Assembly (NCBI RefSeq): GCF_010671925.1
Contig: NZ_JAAHIH010000007.1
Coordinates: forward strand, 62,001-126,000
DNA from: Moorena sp. SIOASIH
GTDB lineage: Bacteria > Cyanobacteriota > Cyanobacteriia > Cyanobacteriales > Coleofasciculaceae
Direction of reading: 5' to 3'
DNA: 64,000 nucleotides
Shown: piece after piece, positions 1 to 56,036 of the stretch
Layout: each line of letters opens with the position of its first letter
Numbering within the stretch: position 1 is the first letter of the stretch
Notes under the pieces: model-generated
Databases searched by the model: none
What the model saw: the letters and a program-made list of their open reading frames with translations, nothing else
What the model was told of the DNA's origin: nothing
Program-made: the position numbers and the translations under genes

Positions 1-3000
1 CCACTTGACCAGGAACAACTGCGTCATTATCAGTAATGGCAATCTCGGTGGATGGGATCTCGAGAGTCAATGGATATTTGTCTGAATCCCCAGTGCTGGT
101 AATCTCGTAGCTGATGGTGCTGCTGTGCTCACCTTCGACAACCGTGTCATCCACCGCCTGTACTGTAATGGTTTTGGGGGTGGTATCCCCTAGGCTCACC
201 ATCACTTCGTTCGAGAAGGTCTCCCCATCAACACGGATTTCACTGTTCTCATCGGCAGTAATCTTGATCTCTACTGGTCCATCTGGAACAGTGTTTAGAG
301 CAATGGTATACTCCCCAGGTTCTCCTCCTTCGGTCAGAGGGGAAATCGGGGTGATGATCACTTGAGCAGGGTCGGTAATATTGGTAGTGAGTTCTCCAAC
401 TAAGCCAACAGTATAGTTTTCATCCTCGGAAACTGTAACTTCGTAGCTGATTTGACTGGTGTGCTCCCCTTCAACTTGGTCATCATCTACCGGCTGCACC
501 GTGATTTCTTTTTCCAGAGTCTCAGCGTTGAAAGTAATGACTTGCTCCAAAGCAAACTCTTGATCATCTACCTTGATTAGACTCTGGTCATCAGCAGTCA
601 GCTTAACCGTTACATCCCCAGTGGGTCGGATACTTAAAGCAACTGTGTAGATTCCCTCTTGACCCTCTTGGACAGACACAGGACCATCGATGAACAGGAT
701 TCCAGGGTCATCGTCTGCAATATTGGCAGTAAATGATGGACCTTCTCCGATAGGATAGTTCTCAAGATCTTCTGTATCGCTAACTCTGTGAGTGATGGTG
801 CTAGTGTGAACCCCTTCTACCAGAGCATCCTGAGCTGCTCGTACCGTAATGGTTTGTTCGAGTTTTTCTGGGTTGAGGGTAATGATTTGCTGAGAGTTAA
901 AGTTGGTGCCATCAAGACTAATTGTACTCTGGTTATCAGCTTGGATAGTAATCTCTACTGCTCCGGTGGGAGGAGTGTTCAAAGAAACTGTGTAAGTGCC
1001 TGAACCATTGTCTTCAGTGATAGTGATGGCCTGGCTGAAGATTAGCCCAGAGTCATTATCAGTAATATCGACAGTGATCTCTTCTGCTAGCTCGCCCAGG
1101 TCATAGTCTAGGTCTTCGGAAGCAATTTCATGGCTAATTTTGCTAGTGTGATCACCTTCGACCTGATCATCATCTAACCCCTGTACTGTAATTTCTTTTT
1201 CCAGGGTTTCAGCGTTGAGGATAATTTCTTGCTCAGGGGCAAACTCTCCGTCACCGACTTTGATTAGACTCTGGTCATCGGCTTTGATAGTGACTGTTAC
1301 GTCACTAGTCGGCACGGTGCTTAAGCCAATTGTGTAAGTATCTTCTTGACCTTCTTCCACAGACAAGGTAGTCTTGCTGAAAAGAATCCCAGGGTTATTA
1401 TCTGTAATTGTGGCACTGAACGAGCCACTAATTCCTATAGGATAGTTAGTGTTATCCTCGGTCTGAGTCACTTCGTGGCTGATAGTGCTGGTGTGAGTTC
1501 CTTCAACCAGATCGTCATCAGGGGCTTGTACAGTGATGGTTTCTTGGAGTTTTTCTGGGTTGAGAGTAATAACTTGCTCTTTGGCAAACTCCCCTTCACC
1601 TACCTTGATCTCACTATCGTCATCAGCGGTCAGAGTAACGGTCACCTCTCCAGTAGGCAGAGTATTTAAAGCAACTGTGTAAGTCCCTTCATCACCGCCT
1701 TCTGTGATTGCGATCGCATCACTAAAGATTAGTCCAGGGTCATTGTCAGTAATGTCGATAGTAACATCCTCGATCTCCTGGTCTAGAGGATAATTGGTGG
1801 TATCACTTGAACCAGTAATTTTATGGCTGATAGTGCTGCTGTGGGGGCCTTCCACAGCGGTGTCATCAACGACCTGGACTGTGATAGTTTGCCGTATAGT
1901 TTCCCTGAGCTGGATCGGAAAGCTAGAAGCAAAGTTAATACCACCGTCTATACTGATTCTAGTCTGTGGATCAGCGGTGATAGTGACTTCTACTGAACCA
2001 CCCCCCACAGGAGGAGTGTTTAAACCAATTTCATAAGTCCCGATATCCCCTTCAGTGAGATCGAGATTACTGATGATGACTACTCCGGGCTCATCATCAG
2101 TAATCTCAGCTATAACATCTGGAATTTCGAGCTCTAGGGGATAGTTTGTGATGTCTTGGGATTCAGTAATCTCGTGGGTGATGGTGCTGTCGCGAAGACT
2201 CCTAAATTCACTATCATCCTTACCTCGCACGGTAATGGTTTGAAGGGTGAGGTCACTGAATGTAACATCTTGAGTGGAAGCAAAGCTAGTACCATCAATA
2301 CTGATTTCAGTCTCATCATCAGCTGTGATAGTAACTTTGACATCGCCAGTAGGCTGAGTGCTTAAACCAATTTCGTAGGTATCAGTACTGCCTTCAGTGA
2401 CCTGAGGAGTACCGATAATAACTACTCCGATATCATTATCAGTAATTGTGGCAGTGACGTCCTCAATGGGTGTGTTCTGATCGGAATAGTTTGTATCCGC
2501 TGAAGCAATGCTGTGGGTAATGATGCTGCTGTGAATCCCTTCCGGCGGCTGATCATCTACCGCCTGCACCTTGATTTCTTTTTCCAGTGTGCTTTGGTTG
2601 AGGGTTATCACCTGCTGTGATGCAAACTCTTGACCATCGACACTGATCAGACCTTGCTCATCCGCTGTAATGGTAACCGTTACATCGTCGGTAGGCTCGG
2701 TGGTTAAACTAATGGTGTAAGTACCCTCTTGACCCTCTAAGAGAGACAAAGATTTATTGGAGATAATCACTCCAGGGGTACCATCCTTAATCTCGATATC
2801 AGTAGACCATGTTCCCTGTCTTTCAGGATAGTTCGGATCCACAGAATCCGTAATTTGGTGGGTGAGGGTACTGGTGTGAAGACCTTCTACCTTGTCGTCT
2901 GTTGTACCTCGCACCGTGACAGTGGTTGGTGTAGTGTCACTAAGTTCGATATTTCGACTGGTGCCAAAGTTTAAGTTGTTCTGATCCAGAGCAAGTTCAC

Positions 3001-4879
3001 TTTCCCCATCTGTGGTGATAGTAACTCTTACAGGGCTAGTGGGGGTGGTACTTAAGGCAACTTCATAGGTTGTCAACTCTCCACCTTCTTCAGTGGGCTC
3101 GGTTGCTGGAGTGATGATCAGACCTGGATCATTGTCAGTAATAGTGACAATTACATCTCCTGCCTTACTGTTTACTTTATAATCTGAGTTCTCTGGAGCT
3201 TCAGTAATGGTGTGGGAGATGGTGCTGGTGTGAGCTCCTTCGACGGTTGAGTCATCCTTAGGCTTGACGGTGATAGTTTTTGCCGATGTGTCACTGAATC
3301 TAACCTCTTGGGTCTCGGCAAATGTGGTACCTCCGTCAATACTGATCAGACTCTGGTCATCAGCCTGAATAGTAACTCTTACATCTCCACCAGGATTCTG
3401 TAGTAATCGAAGTGTGTAGTTACCTTCATTACCCTCTTCAACAGATGGGGCAGTACCAAAATCGAAAAGGCTGGAGCTATCATCAATAATTTCAATGGTA
3501 GCGCTATCAATTATTGTGCTTGCAGGATAGTTGCCAGTATCGTCTGTAGCAGTGATTGTGTGGGTGATTGTACTTTCGTGAGGAGTCCCTTCTGATGGGT
3601 CGTTATCTTCTGTAGCCTGTACCTTAATGGTTTGGGGTGTAGTATCGCTGAGTGTGATAGTTAGCTGGTCTTCAAACTGAGTCCCATCCGGCAATTTGAT
3701 CTCACTATCGTCATCAGAAGCAAGGGTGATTGTTACGTCCCCAGTAGGATTGGTGCTTAAAGCAATGGTGTATTCATTTTCGTCACCTTCTTGAATCTGA
3801 CCAGTAGGTTGGGTTATGATTACCCCAGGATCATTGTCAGCAATATTAACAGTGACATCCCCAACTTTGCTAACTGGAAAGTTTGAACTGTTTGAATTAG
3901 TAATTTCGTGGCTAATGCTAACTGTTTGAGCTCCGGTGACATCTGAGTCTTCAGTAGCCTGCACCGTGATAGTTTTTTCGGATGTGGTGCTGTTGAGGTT
4001 GATGACTTGCTCGGAAGCAAATTCTTGGTCATCTTCTACCTTGATTAGACTCGACCCATTGGCTTTGATGGTGACTGTTATGTCTGCATCAAGCCCGTCT
4101 GCTTTAATGGTGTAGGTACCCTCTTGACCTTCTGTAATAGACAAGGTTTGGTTATCGAAGGTGAGCAGATCTGGGTTATTGTCAGTAATCGTGGCAAAGA
4201 CCTGTCTAGTTTGACCTTGAGAATATTGTGGTTGTGTTGCCTCGGACTCAGTAATGGTGTGGGTAATGGTGCTGCTGTGCGTACCTTCTAGGATGTTGTC
4301 CTCAATCCCTTGCACCGTGATTTCGGTGGTGAAGTCGGTTTCGTTAAAGGTTATCTCTCCGGAAGAGACAAAGGTGTTGCCCCCATCTAAACTAAATTCA
4401 CTCTGACCATCGGTAGTTTCGATTTCGACTGTTACGTTTCCATCCGGCGCGGTACTCAACCCAAATTCATAGGTACTATTTTCACCCCCTTCAATGGGTG
4501 TGGGCGTGCCTTGGATATATAGCCCTGGGTCATTATCGGTAATTTCAAGGCTGACACCAGTAAGTTCAGTATTTACAGGATAGTTGGTTTCGTCATCTGT
4601 GGCTGTAACAGTGTGAGTGATGGTGCCCGGGTGAACACCTTCAGGAGTGCCATCATCTATAACCCGCACCGTCACAGTTTTTGCTGAGGTGTCATTGATT
4701 ACGACGGTGTGTTGGGTCCTGAAGCCCTGACCATCCACATTGATTTGACTCTGCCCATCAGTGCTGAGTCTAACAGTGACGTCTCCAGTTGGTGGGGTGT
4801 CTAAGGCAATAGTGTATGACTGGTCAGCACTAGTTTCAGTAAGCTGGATATTTGTCTGTGAGAGAGTAACGTTTGCCAT
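1..4879 (-). CDS. giant Calx-beta-like tandem-repeat protein (N-terminal part, runs off left edge)
   Basis: This frame is open from the ATG at 4877-4879 to the window edge, giving 1,626 codons with no stop seen where I translated it. The protein starts MANVTLSQTNIQLTE and has no obvious signal peptide. It is a tandem array with a period of about 350 bp (115-117 residues). Each unit ends in a D-N-D-P-G-like turn after ITDND and contains YTIxLxTxPTGDVTV, an ITVQA strand and VEGxHTSTITHxI. I count 14 such boundaries, near 4530, 4180, 3830, 3480, 3130, 2780, 2430, 2090, 1740, 1397, 1050, 712, 370 and 25. The acidic turns fit Calx-beta-type calcium-binding beta sandwiches, usually found in secreted adhesins or RTX-like proteins. 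Any secretion signal would lie in the missing C-terminus. No clear Shine-Dalgarno precedes the ATG. The repeat fold is fairly secure. The function (surface or extracellular adhesion) is inferred. Confidence 0.85.
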   Translation of the reverse strand, partial: MANVTLSQTNIQLTETSADQSYTIALDTPPTGDVTVRLSTDGQSQINVDGQGFRTQHTVVINDTSAKTVTVRVIDDGTPEGVHPGTITHTVTATDDETNYPVNTELTGVSLEITDNDPGLYIQGTPTPIEGGENSTYEFGLSTAPDGNVTVEIETTDGQSEFSLDGGNTFVSSGEITFNETDFTTEITVQGIEDNILEGTHSSTITHTITESEATQPQYSQGQTRQVFATITDNNPDLLTFDNQTLSITEGQEGTYTIKADGLDADITVTIKANGSSLIKVEDDQEFASEQVINLNSTTSEKTITVQATEDSDVTGAQTVSISHEITNSNSSNFPVSKVGDVTVNIADNDPGVIITQPTGQIQEGDENEYTIALSTNPTGDVTITLASDDDSEIKLPDGTQFEDQLTITLSDTTPQTIKVQATEDNDPSEGTPHESTITHTITATDDTGNYPASTIIDSATIEIIDDSSSLFDFGTAPSVEEGNEGNYTLRLLQNPGGDVRVTIQADDQSLISIDGGTTFAETQEVRFSDTSAKTITVKPKDDSTVEGAHTSTISHTITEAPENSDYKVNSKAGDVIVTITDNDPGLIITPATEPTEEGGELTTYEVALSTTPTSPVRVTITTDGESELALDQNNLNFGTSRNIELSDTTPTTVTVRGTTDDKVEGLHTSTLTHQITDSVDPNYPERQGTWSTDIEIKDGTPGVIISNKSLSLLEGQEGTYTISLTTEPTDDVTVTITADEQGLISVDGQEFASQQVITLNQSTLEKEIKVQAVDDQPPEGIHSSIITHSIASADTNYSDQNTPIEDVTATITDNDIGVVIIGTPQVTEGSTDTYEIGLSTQPTGDVKVTITADDETEISIDGTSFASTQDVTFSDLTLQTITVRGKDDSEFRSLRDSTITHEITESQDITNYPLELEIPDVIAEITDDEPGVVIISNLDLTEGDIGTYEIGLNTPPVGGGSVEVTITADPQTRISIDGGINFASSFPIQLRETIRQTITVQVVDDTAVEGPHSSTISHKITGSSDTTNYPLDQEIEDVTIDITDNDPGLIFSDAIAITEGGDEGTYTVALNTLPTGEVTVTLTADDDSEIKVGEGEFAKEQVITLNPEKLQETITVQAPDDDLVEGTHTSTISHEVTQTEDNTNYPIGISGSFSATITDNNPGILFSKTTLSVEEGQEDTYTIGLSTVPTSDVTVTIKADDQSLIKVGDGEFAPEQEIILNAETLEKEITVQGLDDDQVEGDHTSKISHEIASEDLDYDLGELAEEITVDITDNDSGLIFSQAITITEDNGSGTYTVSLNTPPTGAVEITIQADNQSTISLDGTNFNSQQIITLNPEKLEQTITVRAAQDALVEGVHTSTITHRVSDTEDLENYPIGEGPSFTANIADDDPGILFIDGPVSVQEGQEGIYTVALSIRPTGDVTVKLTADDQSLIKVDDQEFALEQVITFNAETLEKEITVQPVDDDQVEGEHTSQISYEVTVSEDENYTVGLVGELTTNITDPAQVIITPISPLTEGGEPGEYTIALNTVPDGPVEIKITADENSEIRVDGETFSNEVMVSLGDTTPKTITVQAVDDTVVEGEHSSTISYEITSTGDSDKYPLTLEIPSTEIAITDNDAVVPGQV

Positions 4880-23755: not shown

Positions 23756-23934
23756 TATAACCGTTCTCAATTGATTGAGGTACCTCTTCCTGGGTTTTAG
23801 GGAGTCGGGAGTCGGGAGTCGGGAGTCGCGATGCAGGGCAGTCCCATGACCGCCCTGCATCAAGACAATCCGAGGATTTTTTGGTGTGCTGATAAATCAG
23901 TATTGGGTTTTATGATCTATTTGGAAATGCTATA
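23756..23934 (+). repeat. family C MITE-like element with GGGAGTC heptamers
   Basis: The left arm reads TATAACCGTTCTC..TTGAGGTAC (23756-23783). Four GGGAGTC heptamers and a nested palindrome GCGATGCAGGGC..GCCCTGCATCAAGAC (23828-23866) follow. The right arm is decayed but ends GGAAATGCTATA (to 23934). The boundaries on the right are approximate. Confidence 0.6.
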
Positions 23935-24888: not shown

Positions 24889-25119
24889 GTAAGTATTCAG
24901 CTATCACCTATCAGTTATCAGTTATCAGCTTTTGAATCAAACAAGTAAGCATTGGAATAATGCTGAGTGAAATCCCAGCGTCGTTCGCACAGCGTGGCCA
25001 TTCGCGTAGCGTGGCCAAAGGCCAAGGCCAAAGCCTGTGCCAAAAAGCACCTCAAGCAGCGTGAGCCTTTAGCTGACGGCTGACGGCTGACGGCTGACGG
25101 CTGACGGCTGAATGCTTAC
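24889..25119 (+). repeat. family A element, intact copy with exact 8-bp target duplication
   Basis: A 231-bp element starting GTAAGTATTCAGC and ending GGCTGAATGCTTAC, flanked by CTAGAGTC on both sides (24881-24888 and 25120-25127). The interior has CTATCAG/TTATCAG heptamers, an internal GTAAGCATT, a CACCTCAAGCAGCGTG stretch with GCGTGGCC palindromes, and five CTGACGG heptamers. No ORF is present. Confidence 0.85.
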
Positions 25120-25985: not shown

Positions 25986-27305
25986 ATGACAGTAGATCAG
26001 CTCATAGATGTACTCACAGTTATGGGGTACGCTAAATTGACTTCCCTTCAGGAATGGATTCTGTACCAAGCTTGGGAAGAAAAAACCTATGCCGAGATGG
26101 CGGAGGACATACACTACGGTAGTGAATATCTCAGGAGAATCGCTTCTAAGTTATGGCTATTGCTCAGCAAGTTTTTTGACAAACCAATTACCAAGGGCAA
26201 CTTCAAACCAGTTTTAGCTAGCATTCCTCTGAGTCCTTTACACGAAGAGCGAATTGAGCAATATTACCAATCCTTGAGCCAATCCCGAACCTTTCCGATT
26301 GGAGTAGTCCCCCTGTCATCAGCCTTTTACATTAAACGTCCCCCTGTCGAAGAAATGGCTTACCAAGCCATTGAACAACTCGGAAGCCTAATCCTGATTA
26401 GATCCCCGAAAGAGACCGGTAAAACCTCTTTGATGCTGCGGATAGTAGACCGGGCAAAATCCCTGGGTTACAGAACAGTATGGATTAATTTTGCCCAAGC
26501 AGAAAGAGGGATTTTAAGTAATTTAGATCGGCTATTACGTTGGTTGTGTGCTAATCTATCTAATCAACTGGTGCTTGCCAAGCAACTGGATGACTATTGG
26601 GATGAGGACATCGGCAGTAAAGCAAGCTGTAGCTGTTTTTTTCAAGGACATATCTTAGAGTCCCTTGAACAGCCCCTAGTTTTGGCGGTGGATGAAGTGA
26701 ATCGGCTGCTTGAGCATACCGAAACAGCTCTTGACTTTTTTCCTCTGTTGCGATCTTGGTCTGAGGCTGCCAAACACGTGAGACCTTGGCAAAAGCTACG
26801 GCTTGTGGTTGCTTACTCCACAGAAGTTGATATTCCTGTTACAATAGCTGACTATTTATCGAATTTAGGATTGCCGATTGAATTACCCCAGTTTAACCCT
26901 CAACAAATTCAGCAGTTAGCCCAGCTTTATCGACTCGATTGGTTGAGAGGTCAAGCTAGCGAGAAATTAATGGCTATGGTGGGGGGACATCCGAAATTAG
27001 TGCAGCTTGCTCTCTATCACTTGGCTTGCGAAAACCTTAGCCTAGAAAAACTTCTTGAGCAAGCACCTACCCGAGAAGGAATTTATAAGGATCATCTGCT
27101 GCTAAAATTAACTAGACTTAGGCAAAATCCTGAGTTAGCCACTTTCTTCAACAAGGTGATTCAAACCGATAGAGGTGTTGAGTTAGATTCAATCTTAATC
27201 AATAGATTAAAGAATCTAGGTTTGATAACCTTTGACGGAAATCACGTCATACCAAGTAGTGATTTATATCGTCAGTATTTCTTAGCACAGCTTAAGGAGG
27301 CGTGA
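25986..27305 (+). CDS. AAA_35-type ATPase with N-terminal helix-turn-helix-like effector domain
   Basis: The 439-aa protein begins MTVDQLIDVLTVMG. The N-terminal 80 residues (LTSLQEWILYQAWEEKTYAEMAEDIHYGSEYLRRIASKLWLLLS) match the small domain that cyanobacteria place ahead of AAA_35, WD40 or CHAT modules. The ATPase part has a Walker A-like SPKETGKTS (about residues 139-147), preceded by LILIR, and Walker B LVLAVDEVN. C-terminal helices resemble the winged end of STAND-type ATPases (GGHPKLVQLALYHL). The family is thought to act in signalling or conflict systems, but its role is unproven. The ATG at 25986 is preferred over the TTG at 25929 because family members start at this MT(V/I)D. It reads alone, with repeats on both sides. 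Confidence 0.85.
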   Translation: MTVDQLIDVLTVMGYAKLTSLQEWILYQAWEEKTYAEMAEDIHYGSEYLRRIASKLWLLLSKFFDKPITKGNFKPVLASIPLSPLHEERIEQYYQSLSQSRTFPIGVVPLSSAFYIKRPPVEEMAYQAIEQLGSLILIRSPKETGKTSLMLRIVDRAKSLGYRTVWINFAQAERGILSNLDRLLRWLCANLSNQLVLAKQLDDYWDEDIGSKASCSCFFQGHILESLEQPLVLAVDEVNRLLEHTETALDFFPLLRSWSEAAKHVRPWQKLRLVVAYSTEVDIPVTIADYLSNLGLPIELPQFNPQQIQQLAQLYRLDWLRGQASEKLMAMVGGHPKLVQLALYHLACENLSLEKLLEQAPTREGIYKDHLLLKLTRLRQNPELATFFNKVIQTDRGVELDSILINRLKNLGLITFDGNHVIPSSDLYRQYFLAQLKEA

Positions 27306-27351
27306 TTTTAGCCCACGCTAATTGGGACAGCTATTGAACATCTAATTTGCT

Positions 27352-27564
27352 GTAAGCATTCAGCCGTCAGCCGTCAGCCGTCAGCCGTCAGCCGTCAGCA
27401 TTCAGCTGACGTAACAAAGATTAAACGAATGCTTACTTGTTGTCTTGATGCAATAGCGAGTGGGGGAAACCCCCAAGACCGCGCTGCATCGCTTATTTAA
27501 AAGCTCAAAGCTGAGAGCTGAGAGCTGAGAGCTGAGAGCTGAGAGCTGAGAGCTGAATGCTTAC
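27352..27564 (+). repeat. family A element with exact 8-bp target duplication and nested palindrome
   Basis: A 213-bp element, GTAAGCATTCAGC..GCTGAATGCTTAC, flanked by AATTTGCT at 27344-27351 and 27565-27572. It carries five CCGTCAG heptamers, an internal GAATGCTTAC, a nested palindrome GTCTTGATGCA..GGGGGAAACCCCC..CTGCATCGC (27442-27492) and about six GCTGAGA heptamers. It lies in the 347-bp gap between the AAA_35 gene and tmk. Confidence 0.88.
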
Positions 27565-27652
27565 AATTTGCTTATTACCTGAGCTTGTTCAACCCATGGT
27601 TTAAGCTGTAGGCTATCAAACATTAGCGCCATGAGTATAAGAGGAGGTCGGC

Positions 27653-54187: not shown

Positions 54188-54345
54188 TTTTAGGGAGTAG
54201 GGAGTAGGGAGTAGGGAGTAGGGAGTAGGGAATCGGGAGTAGGGAGTAGGGAGTAGGGAATCGGGAGTAGGGAGTAGGGAGTAGGGAGTAGGGAGTAGGG
54301 AATTGGGAGTAGGGAATCGGGAATCGGGAATCGGGAATTGGGAAA
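54188..54345 (+). repeat. GGGAGTA heptamer array
   Basis: More than twenty GGGAGTA/GGGAATC/GGGAATT heptamers in tandem. It is the longest array of this type in the window and follows a GATTTTAGGGAG stretch. Confidence 0.92.
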
Positions 54346-54395
54346 AAATCTTGTTTACCTGATTACTATGAGAACCGATAATTACCCTTAATAAA

Positions 54396-54520
54396 AATCT
54401 CCCCATCTCCCTATCTCCCTATCTCCCCATCTCCCTATCTCCCCATCTCCCTATCTCCCCATCTCCCCATCTCCCCATCTCCCCATCTCCCCATCTCCCC
54501 ATCTCCCCACACTCCCCTCT
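54396..54520 (+). repeat. ATCTCCCC/ATCTCCCT octamer array
   Basis: About fifteen 8-bp units alternating CCCC and CCCT. It differs from the neighbouring heptamer array in unit length and strand bias, and it lies just before the end of the MidA-like gene. Confidence 0.9.
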
Positions 54521-55824: not shown

Positions 55825-56036
55825 GTCGGGAACAGGGAACAGGGAACAGGGAATAGGGAACAGGGAACAGTGGACAAGAATTGACGGAAACACGATCAGA
55901 AAACTAATTTTGTAAGAGGTTTATTATACATATATACCATTTCTGGTACTTATGAGGTACAGACAATTTAATTCTACCTACTCCCTACTCCCTACTCCCT
56001 ACTCCCTACTCCCTACTCCCTACTCCCTTTCCTATA
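55825..56036. repeat. GGGAACA and CTCCCTA heptamer arrays flanking a family C-like arm
   Basis: GGGAACAGGGAACA units (55830-55870) start just after the MidA ATG. The sequence ATTTCTGGTACTTATGAGGTAC (about 55938-55960) resembles the family C left arm and is followed by CTCCCTA heptamers (55978-56030). The whole spacer between the MidA and hydrolase genes is repeat-derived. Confidence 0.65.

Follow-up and report, generated by a model that had tools for sequence, protein, structure and literature searches.

The 213-bp repeat at positions 27352-27564 of the window, the 64,000-nucleotide stretch of Moorena DNA analysed here, is probably a nest of two mobile elements: an IS66-type MITE, called family A below, and inside it an independent tiny hairpin, E, which entered once or a few times and was then spread by recombination. 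The element is on the plus strand of a 9.94 Mb genome, with a gene for an AAA-like domain on one side and a thymidylate kinase gene on the other. The 8-bp target-site duplication AATTTGCT is found exactly on both sides (27344-27351 and 27565-27572), and the homologous locus in genome G003 (L093) has one AATTTGCT and no element, so that the independent copy recognised in the preliminary description is borne out by an empty site. The ends, GTAAGCATTCAGC...GCTGAATGCTTAC, are inverted repeats of 13 bp (27352-27364, and 27552-27564 on the minus strand). The left arm consists of five CGTCAGC heptamers and one ATTCAGC (27365-27406), and the right arm of GCTGAGA-type heptamers (27509-27551). Between the arms is a conserved core, divided into TAAACGAATGCTTACTTGTT (27422-27441) and TTATTTAAAAGCTCA (27493-27507) by the 51-nt palindrome E (27442-27492; GTCTTGATGCA...TGCATCGC, then T). 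This is the second palindromic repeat that had been noticed in the middle of the copy, and it reads GTCTTGATGCA..GGGGGAAACCCCC..CTGCATCGC.

The stretch corresponding to the locus is replaced by other repeats in G001, which was unusable as an empty site, and in G002 the homologous site, rejected as an excision footprint, has an unrelated local tandem duplication. The window holds a second family A copy of 231 bp (24889-25119, strand not assigned; C7:86889), with the duplication CTAGAGTC and without E. Allowing up to three mismatches, GTCTTGATGCAATAGCGAG occurs once in the window against 0.02 occurrences expected. No RNA family was found with Rfam in the whole window at the gathering cut-offs, nor in two 20-kb stretches; at E-values up to 1, the region 27300-27620 gave two sub-threshold matches only, which were taken as chance. 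A distant-mode search of a plasmid collection gave no match.

Family A was characterised in contigs C6, C7 and C11 of the window's genome, an unbiased sample of 1,547,948 bases (approximately 1.55 Mb). Left and right ends 60-2500 bp apart gave 177 end pairs, 38 of them with an exact 8-bp duplication and 46 with one containing no more than one mismatch. The same 177 pairs read at shifted offsets gave only 0-1 duplications, so those at the family A ends are not due to chance. Forty-four of the 46 pairs bound MITEs of 103-457 bp, which could not accommodate a transposase gene and mostly have heptamer arms; the remaining two are of transposon size and contain remnants of an IS66 transposase. Elements of 1548 bp (C6:558890-560437) and 1809 bp (C6:313291-315099) are flanked by the exact 8-bp duplications TAATATTC and CTCGAATG, respectively. 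The family A end GTAAGCATTCAGC matches GTAAGCATTCAGG of the 1548-bp element and of the sister-genome loci L345 and L347, all of them beginning with GTAA, and the IS66-family elements of the genus have closely similar ends, either GTAAG.ATTCAG or GTAA.CGTTCAG. When 12 sister-genome loci (L336-L347, seven of which are IS66 hits of those genomes) were scanned, GTAA..TTCAG-type ends with exact 8-bp duplications were present at L341, L342, L343, L345 and L347. The ORF at L341 is an IS66 family transposase (NCBIfam, E 4e-89; also PF03050).

Since IS66-family transposons of Moorena genomes have matching ends and 8-bp duplications, family A is, as judged from sequence, an IS66-type MITE with 13-bp ends starting at GTAA, arms of 7-bp tandem repeats and an 8-bp target duplication. 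It has the GTAA ends and exact duplications of the IS66 family and its MITEs, and nearly the same ends as elements with PF03050 in the same genus, but is without a transposase and has 7-bp tandem repeats as arms; heptamer repeat arms can thus be assigned to an IS66-type MITE. Being non-autonomous, it would presumably have depended for its movement on an IS66 transposase acting in trans. Stop-free IS66 ORFs are present in G001. All ten IS66 hits in the window's genome look partial or broken, and the present mobility of family A there is therefore doubtful. The BrickBuilt element of Porphyromonas gingivalis is likewise a MITE with internal tandem repeats and with filled and empty sites, and one of its copies contains another nested MITE; its repeats are 23 nt long, its ends are IS5-like and, in the available part of that report, a hairpin recurring at one nucleotide is not described (PMC4596501).

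E is a repeat separate from family A, since the pattern GTCTTGATGCA-N10-35-TGCATCGC is matched strictly at 112 or more places of the window's genome and most family A cores are empty. In the 1.55-Mb sample, 61 of 70 E copies are outside family A and nine inside. The modal length of E with a single layer is 51 nt, and nearly every copy listed has the tag GTCTT. As a single strand it folds at -13.0 kcal/mol (z -3.6 relative to dinucleotide shuffles). A narrower pattern matched 104 times in the window's genome and 149, 73 and 64 times in three sister genomes, with no copies in 53 further relatives; the strict form is present in four of 57 genomes searched, all of the window's genus. The host range is at least somewhat wider, as a scan of named genomes had E, among the matches listed, also in Okeania, Xenococcus, other Xenococcaceae and Hyella. 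A literature search yielded no published description of E in Moorena, which does not prove that there is none. A 39-nt E-like palindrome adjoins a GGGAGTC heptamer array at 23828-23866 of the window (minus strand; C7:85828).

The insertion of E was studied by comparing the flanks of 167 copies with the collected DNA, and an empty-like homologous site was obtained for 36. In 19 of these pairs (12 distinct sites by our own grouping) the flanks overlap by exactly one T at the empty site, ie the inserted unit is E plus T, 52 nt; the additional T is either part of E or a 1-bp duplication, the two being indistinguishable. The other 17 pairs were not scored as 52-nt events, as their gap was 0 (those in family A and the heptamer arrays) or 1-11 with unaligned ends. 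In family A and these arrays the inserted unit measures 51 nt and not 52, so the rule for the end of E is not uniform. There is no multi-base target duplication. Among 153 copies the target consensus is C-N-Y-T, with C in 72% at -4 and T in 85% at -1, and a T directly follows E in 98%. Reading frames gave an independent measure of the unit. In Okeania, E interrupts tnpB (OrfB_IS605), recurring at one site of the gene, and the frame KRxKR(G/S)LY is restored by removing 52 nt, not 51, at 14 of the 17 loci examined (the exceptions are L231 and L296, which could not be parsed, and L299, which has no continuous frame). In Xenococcaceae and Hyella it interrupts a DDE_5 transposase gene, again recurring at one site, and the frame is restored by removing E plus one nucleotide, not E alone, at three of four loci (the exception, L228, yielded no such frame). 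On these data E would be an independent, tiny mobile hairpin of 51 nt plus one T, entering after a short pyrimidine-rich target without multi-base duplication, and the change in sequence is directly visible at the filled and empty sites.

The claim of a nested insertion at the locus could be examined on 62 family A cores, collected partly from targeted loci, of which 51 are empty and 11 contain E. The unbiased 1.55-Mb sample has 28 empty and nine filled cores among 37; nine other anchor pairs in it, without E, were taken as chance pairs. The inner palindrome is accordingly absent from most copies, at a precise junction, and filled and empty cores exist side by side. Nested insertion is supported by this junction polymorphism, whose lack, according to the preliminary description, would have marked the palindrome as an integral part. 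Genome-wide, the empty core occurs at 46 places with up to three mismatches. Empty cores have a 5-nt middle, mostly xTTTT, and in the filled ones E is always at one nucleotide, between xTT and TT. An element within an element is thus real here, and is of a kind known in outline.

Exact empty junctions are also expected if E was an integral, ancestral part of family A, lost precisely from most copies by excision or replication slippage. Hairpins are prone to deletion, and filled copies are not confined to a single Moorena genome (L256, L277). We nevertheless consider such a history improbable, as the 5-nt middle is the same in each of the 51 empty cores, with none in the shorter form expected from slippage or from excision of 52 nt, and most E copies, as counted above, have no family A around them. 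Slippage between the flanking TTs was in particular ruled out as the source of the empty cores; it would remove two Ts.

It had also been suggested that other repeats use the elements as landing sites. This is supported in so far as 8 of 44 family A copies contain another repeat module, GCGTAGCGTGGCC, whose position varies, ie nesting of other repeats in family A does occur. With regard to E the suggestion is harder to maintain. E might have inserted repeatedly at the same preferred site, family A providing a hot spot similar to that of a homing element, and this we regard as possible but not as the likely course of events. In a tree of the cores the filled copies are on several branches and not in one clade, with at least eight changes, five of them forced by well-supported branches, and a single filled clade is rejected (AU p 7.8e-7), although only 93 columns were available and recombination, which breaks the assumptions of the tree, is likely. 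The nine filled cores of the sample hold anything from a single-layer to a five-layer E, and the variants at the site match in diversity those found elsewhere, as would also be expected from repeated insertion; an identical 95-nt double E is shared by two cores with differences at nearby positions. The repeated occurrence of E at a single site in the transposon genes of Okeania and of Xenococcaceae points the same way. Against repeated insertion, the site TGTT| departs from the usual C-N-Y-T|, the insertion there is of 51 and not 52 nt, the GATCC variant of E is nearly private to family A (four of nine copies there, one of 61 elsewhere; Fisher p 6e-4), and no core examined has E at a second position.

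On account of the off-target site, the 51-nt insertion and the near-private GATCC variant, we consider a few entries of E, with recombination between MITE copies, to be roughly twice as likely as many entries. E would most probably have entered an ancestral MITE at a single point, in one event or a few, and would then have been copied along with the MITE and shuffled among its copies by homologous recombination or gene conversion. Copying and shuffling of this kind would leave near-identical cores that differ precisely in having or lacking E. Over the sequence from which the tree was built, two filled cores, that of the window and that at C7:314940, are the same as two empty ones.

The lack of a duplication, a short target on the 5' side and the hairpin structure suggest that E may move as a single-stranded hairpin through a Y1/HUH-type enzyme, REP- or IS200-like, acting in trans; an RNA-copy route would be an alternative. 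A Y1-domain search of the window's genome gave 25 matches, three of which were tested and were named RAYT by NCBIfam. REP elements have a GTAG or GTGG tag 5' to the foot of the hairpin and are linked to RAYTs. A reading of E as a true REP element, dependent for its mobility on a RAYT encoded in the window's genome, would agree with its palindromic form, its high copy number, the lack of a multi-base duplication, its borders beside pyrimidine-T and the three RAYT genes. We think it unlikely, since the tag is GTCTT and the RAYT genes adjoin other repeats. A motif scan around the three genes (L133, L134 and L135), with the flanks of L133 and L135 also read directly, found no E within 1.5 kb, and the RAYTs were not retained as linked enzymes. 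Searching with the three RAYTs by tblastn gave no hit in 80 named loci and the 1.55-Mb sample. As to a possible origin of E from IS200/IS605 ends, none of the 13 best Y1 ORFs (L111-L123) has an E-like 5' motif (GTCTTGATGCA, one mismatch at most) less than 1.5 kb away, and the ends of the IS605-type loci L111-L114 look, by eye, different from E. Altogether, the Y1-domain search and the flank scans found no transposase for E in the window's genome. The RAYT genes at L133 and L135 are flanked by palindromes of the GTAGGGTGGGCATTGC and GTAGGGTGC types, by eye classical GTAG-tagged REPs, and the RAYT gene at L134 (1405-2016, minus strand) is beside long GGAACAGGCTTCCAGCCTG-type repeat arrays that read as ORFs.

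The closest known kinds of repeat are the small dispersed repeats (SDRs) of cyanobacteria and the REP elements. SDRs of Nostoc are reportedly tiny palindromic repeats that occur inside mini-transposons, in heptamer arrays and within copies of themselves, and are said to measure 21-27 nt. E is also found within mini-transposons and heptamer repeats, is self-nested and inserts precisely, a likeness drawn from descriptions of SDRs; it differs in its target and in its length, 51 nt per single layer against the 21-27 nt given for SDRs. SDR5 is described as inserted precisely inside HIP1 (PMC4390886). With the REP/RAYT (TnpAREP) system E has in common a high copy number of hairpins and the absence of a multi-base duplication, and cleavage at CT, described for known TnpAREPs (PMC8266576), is close to the YT| borders of E. 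E is without the GT[AG]G tag at the hairpin foot and without a linked RAYT. By analogy it resembles a single-strand hairpin of the REP/IS200 type, but as the GTAG tag is missing it was not filed as a REP. The filled locus is an instance of a mini-transposon carrying a smaller passenger, and the many clean filled and empty pairs, a unit length checked by reading frame, a target consensus and graded nesting make the mechanism of E testable.

E also nests concentrically inside itself. Extra joints are present within the loop in 30 of the 70 copies of the 1.55-Mb sample. A full extra layer lengthens the 5' side by about 25 nt and the 3' side by about 19 nt (approximately 44 nt), so the lengths of E peak at 51 and 95. 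The numbers of layers on the two sides are equal in 21 of the 30 nested copies (2000 shuffles gave a mean of 14.2 and a maximum of 21) and are correlated over all 70 copies (r = 0.92). One nested joint occurs at 131 places in G000 with up to three mismatches. A bolder reading, which we put forward tentatively and think rather doubtful, would make E a "homing hairpin" of about 52 nt that uses one fixed site in each of several unrelated transposon families (the IS66-MITE core in Moorena, tnpB in Okeania and, in Xenococcaceae, a gene for a DDE transposase), brings in one T and can insert again within its own loop, to as many as five layers, by an undescribed enzyme or an RNA-templated route.

Concentric palindromes with up to four extra loop layers can be seen at C6:911802, C6:245426 and C6:673491, in a survey of contigs C6, C7 and C11 of G000. 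The window contains other repeats as well: long arrays of heptamers and octamers (GGGAGTA, ATCTCCCC), together with an inverted counterpart, at 54191-54346, 54397-54500 and 55974-56028, and, at 98-4836, a series of repeats spaced about 345 bp apart and roughly 60-73% alike.
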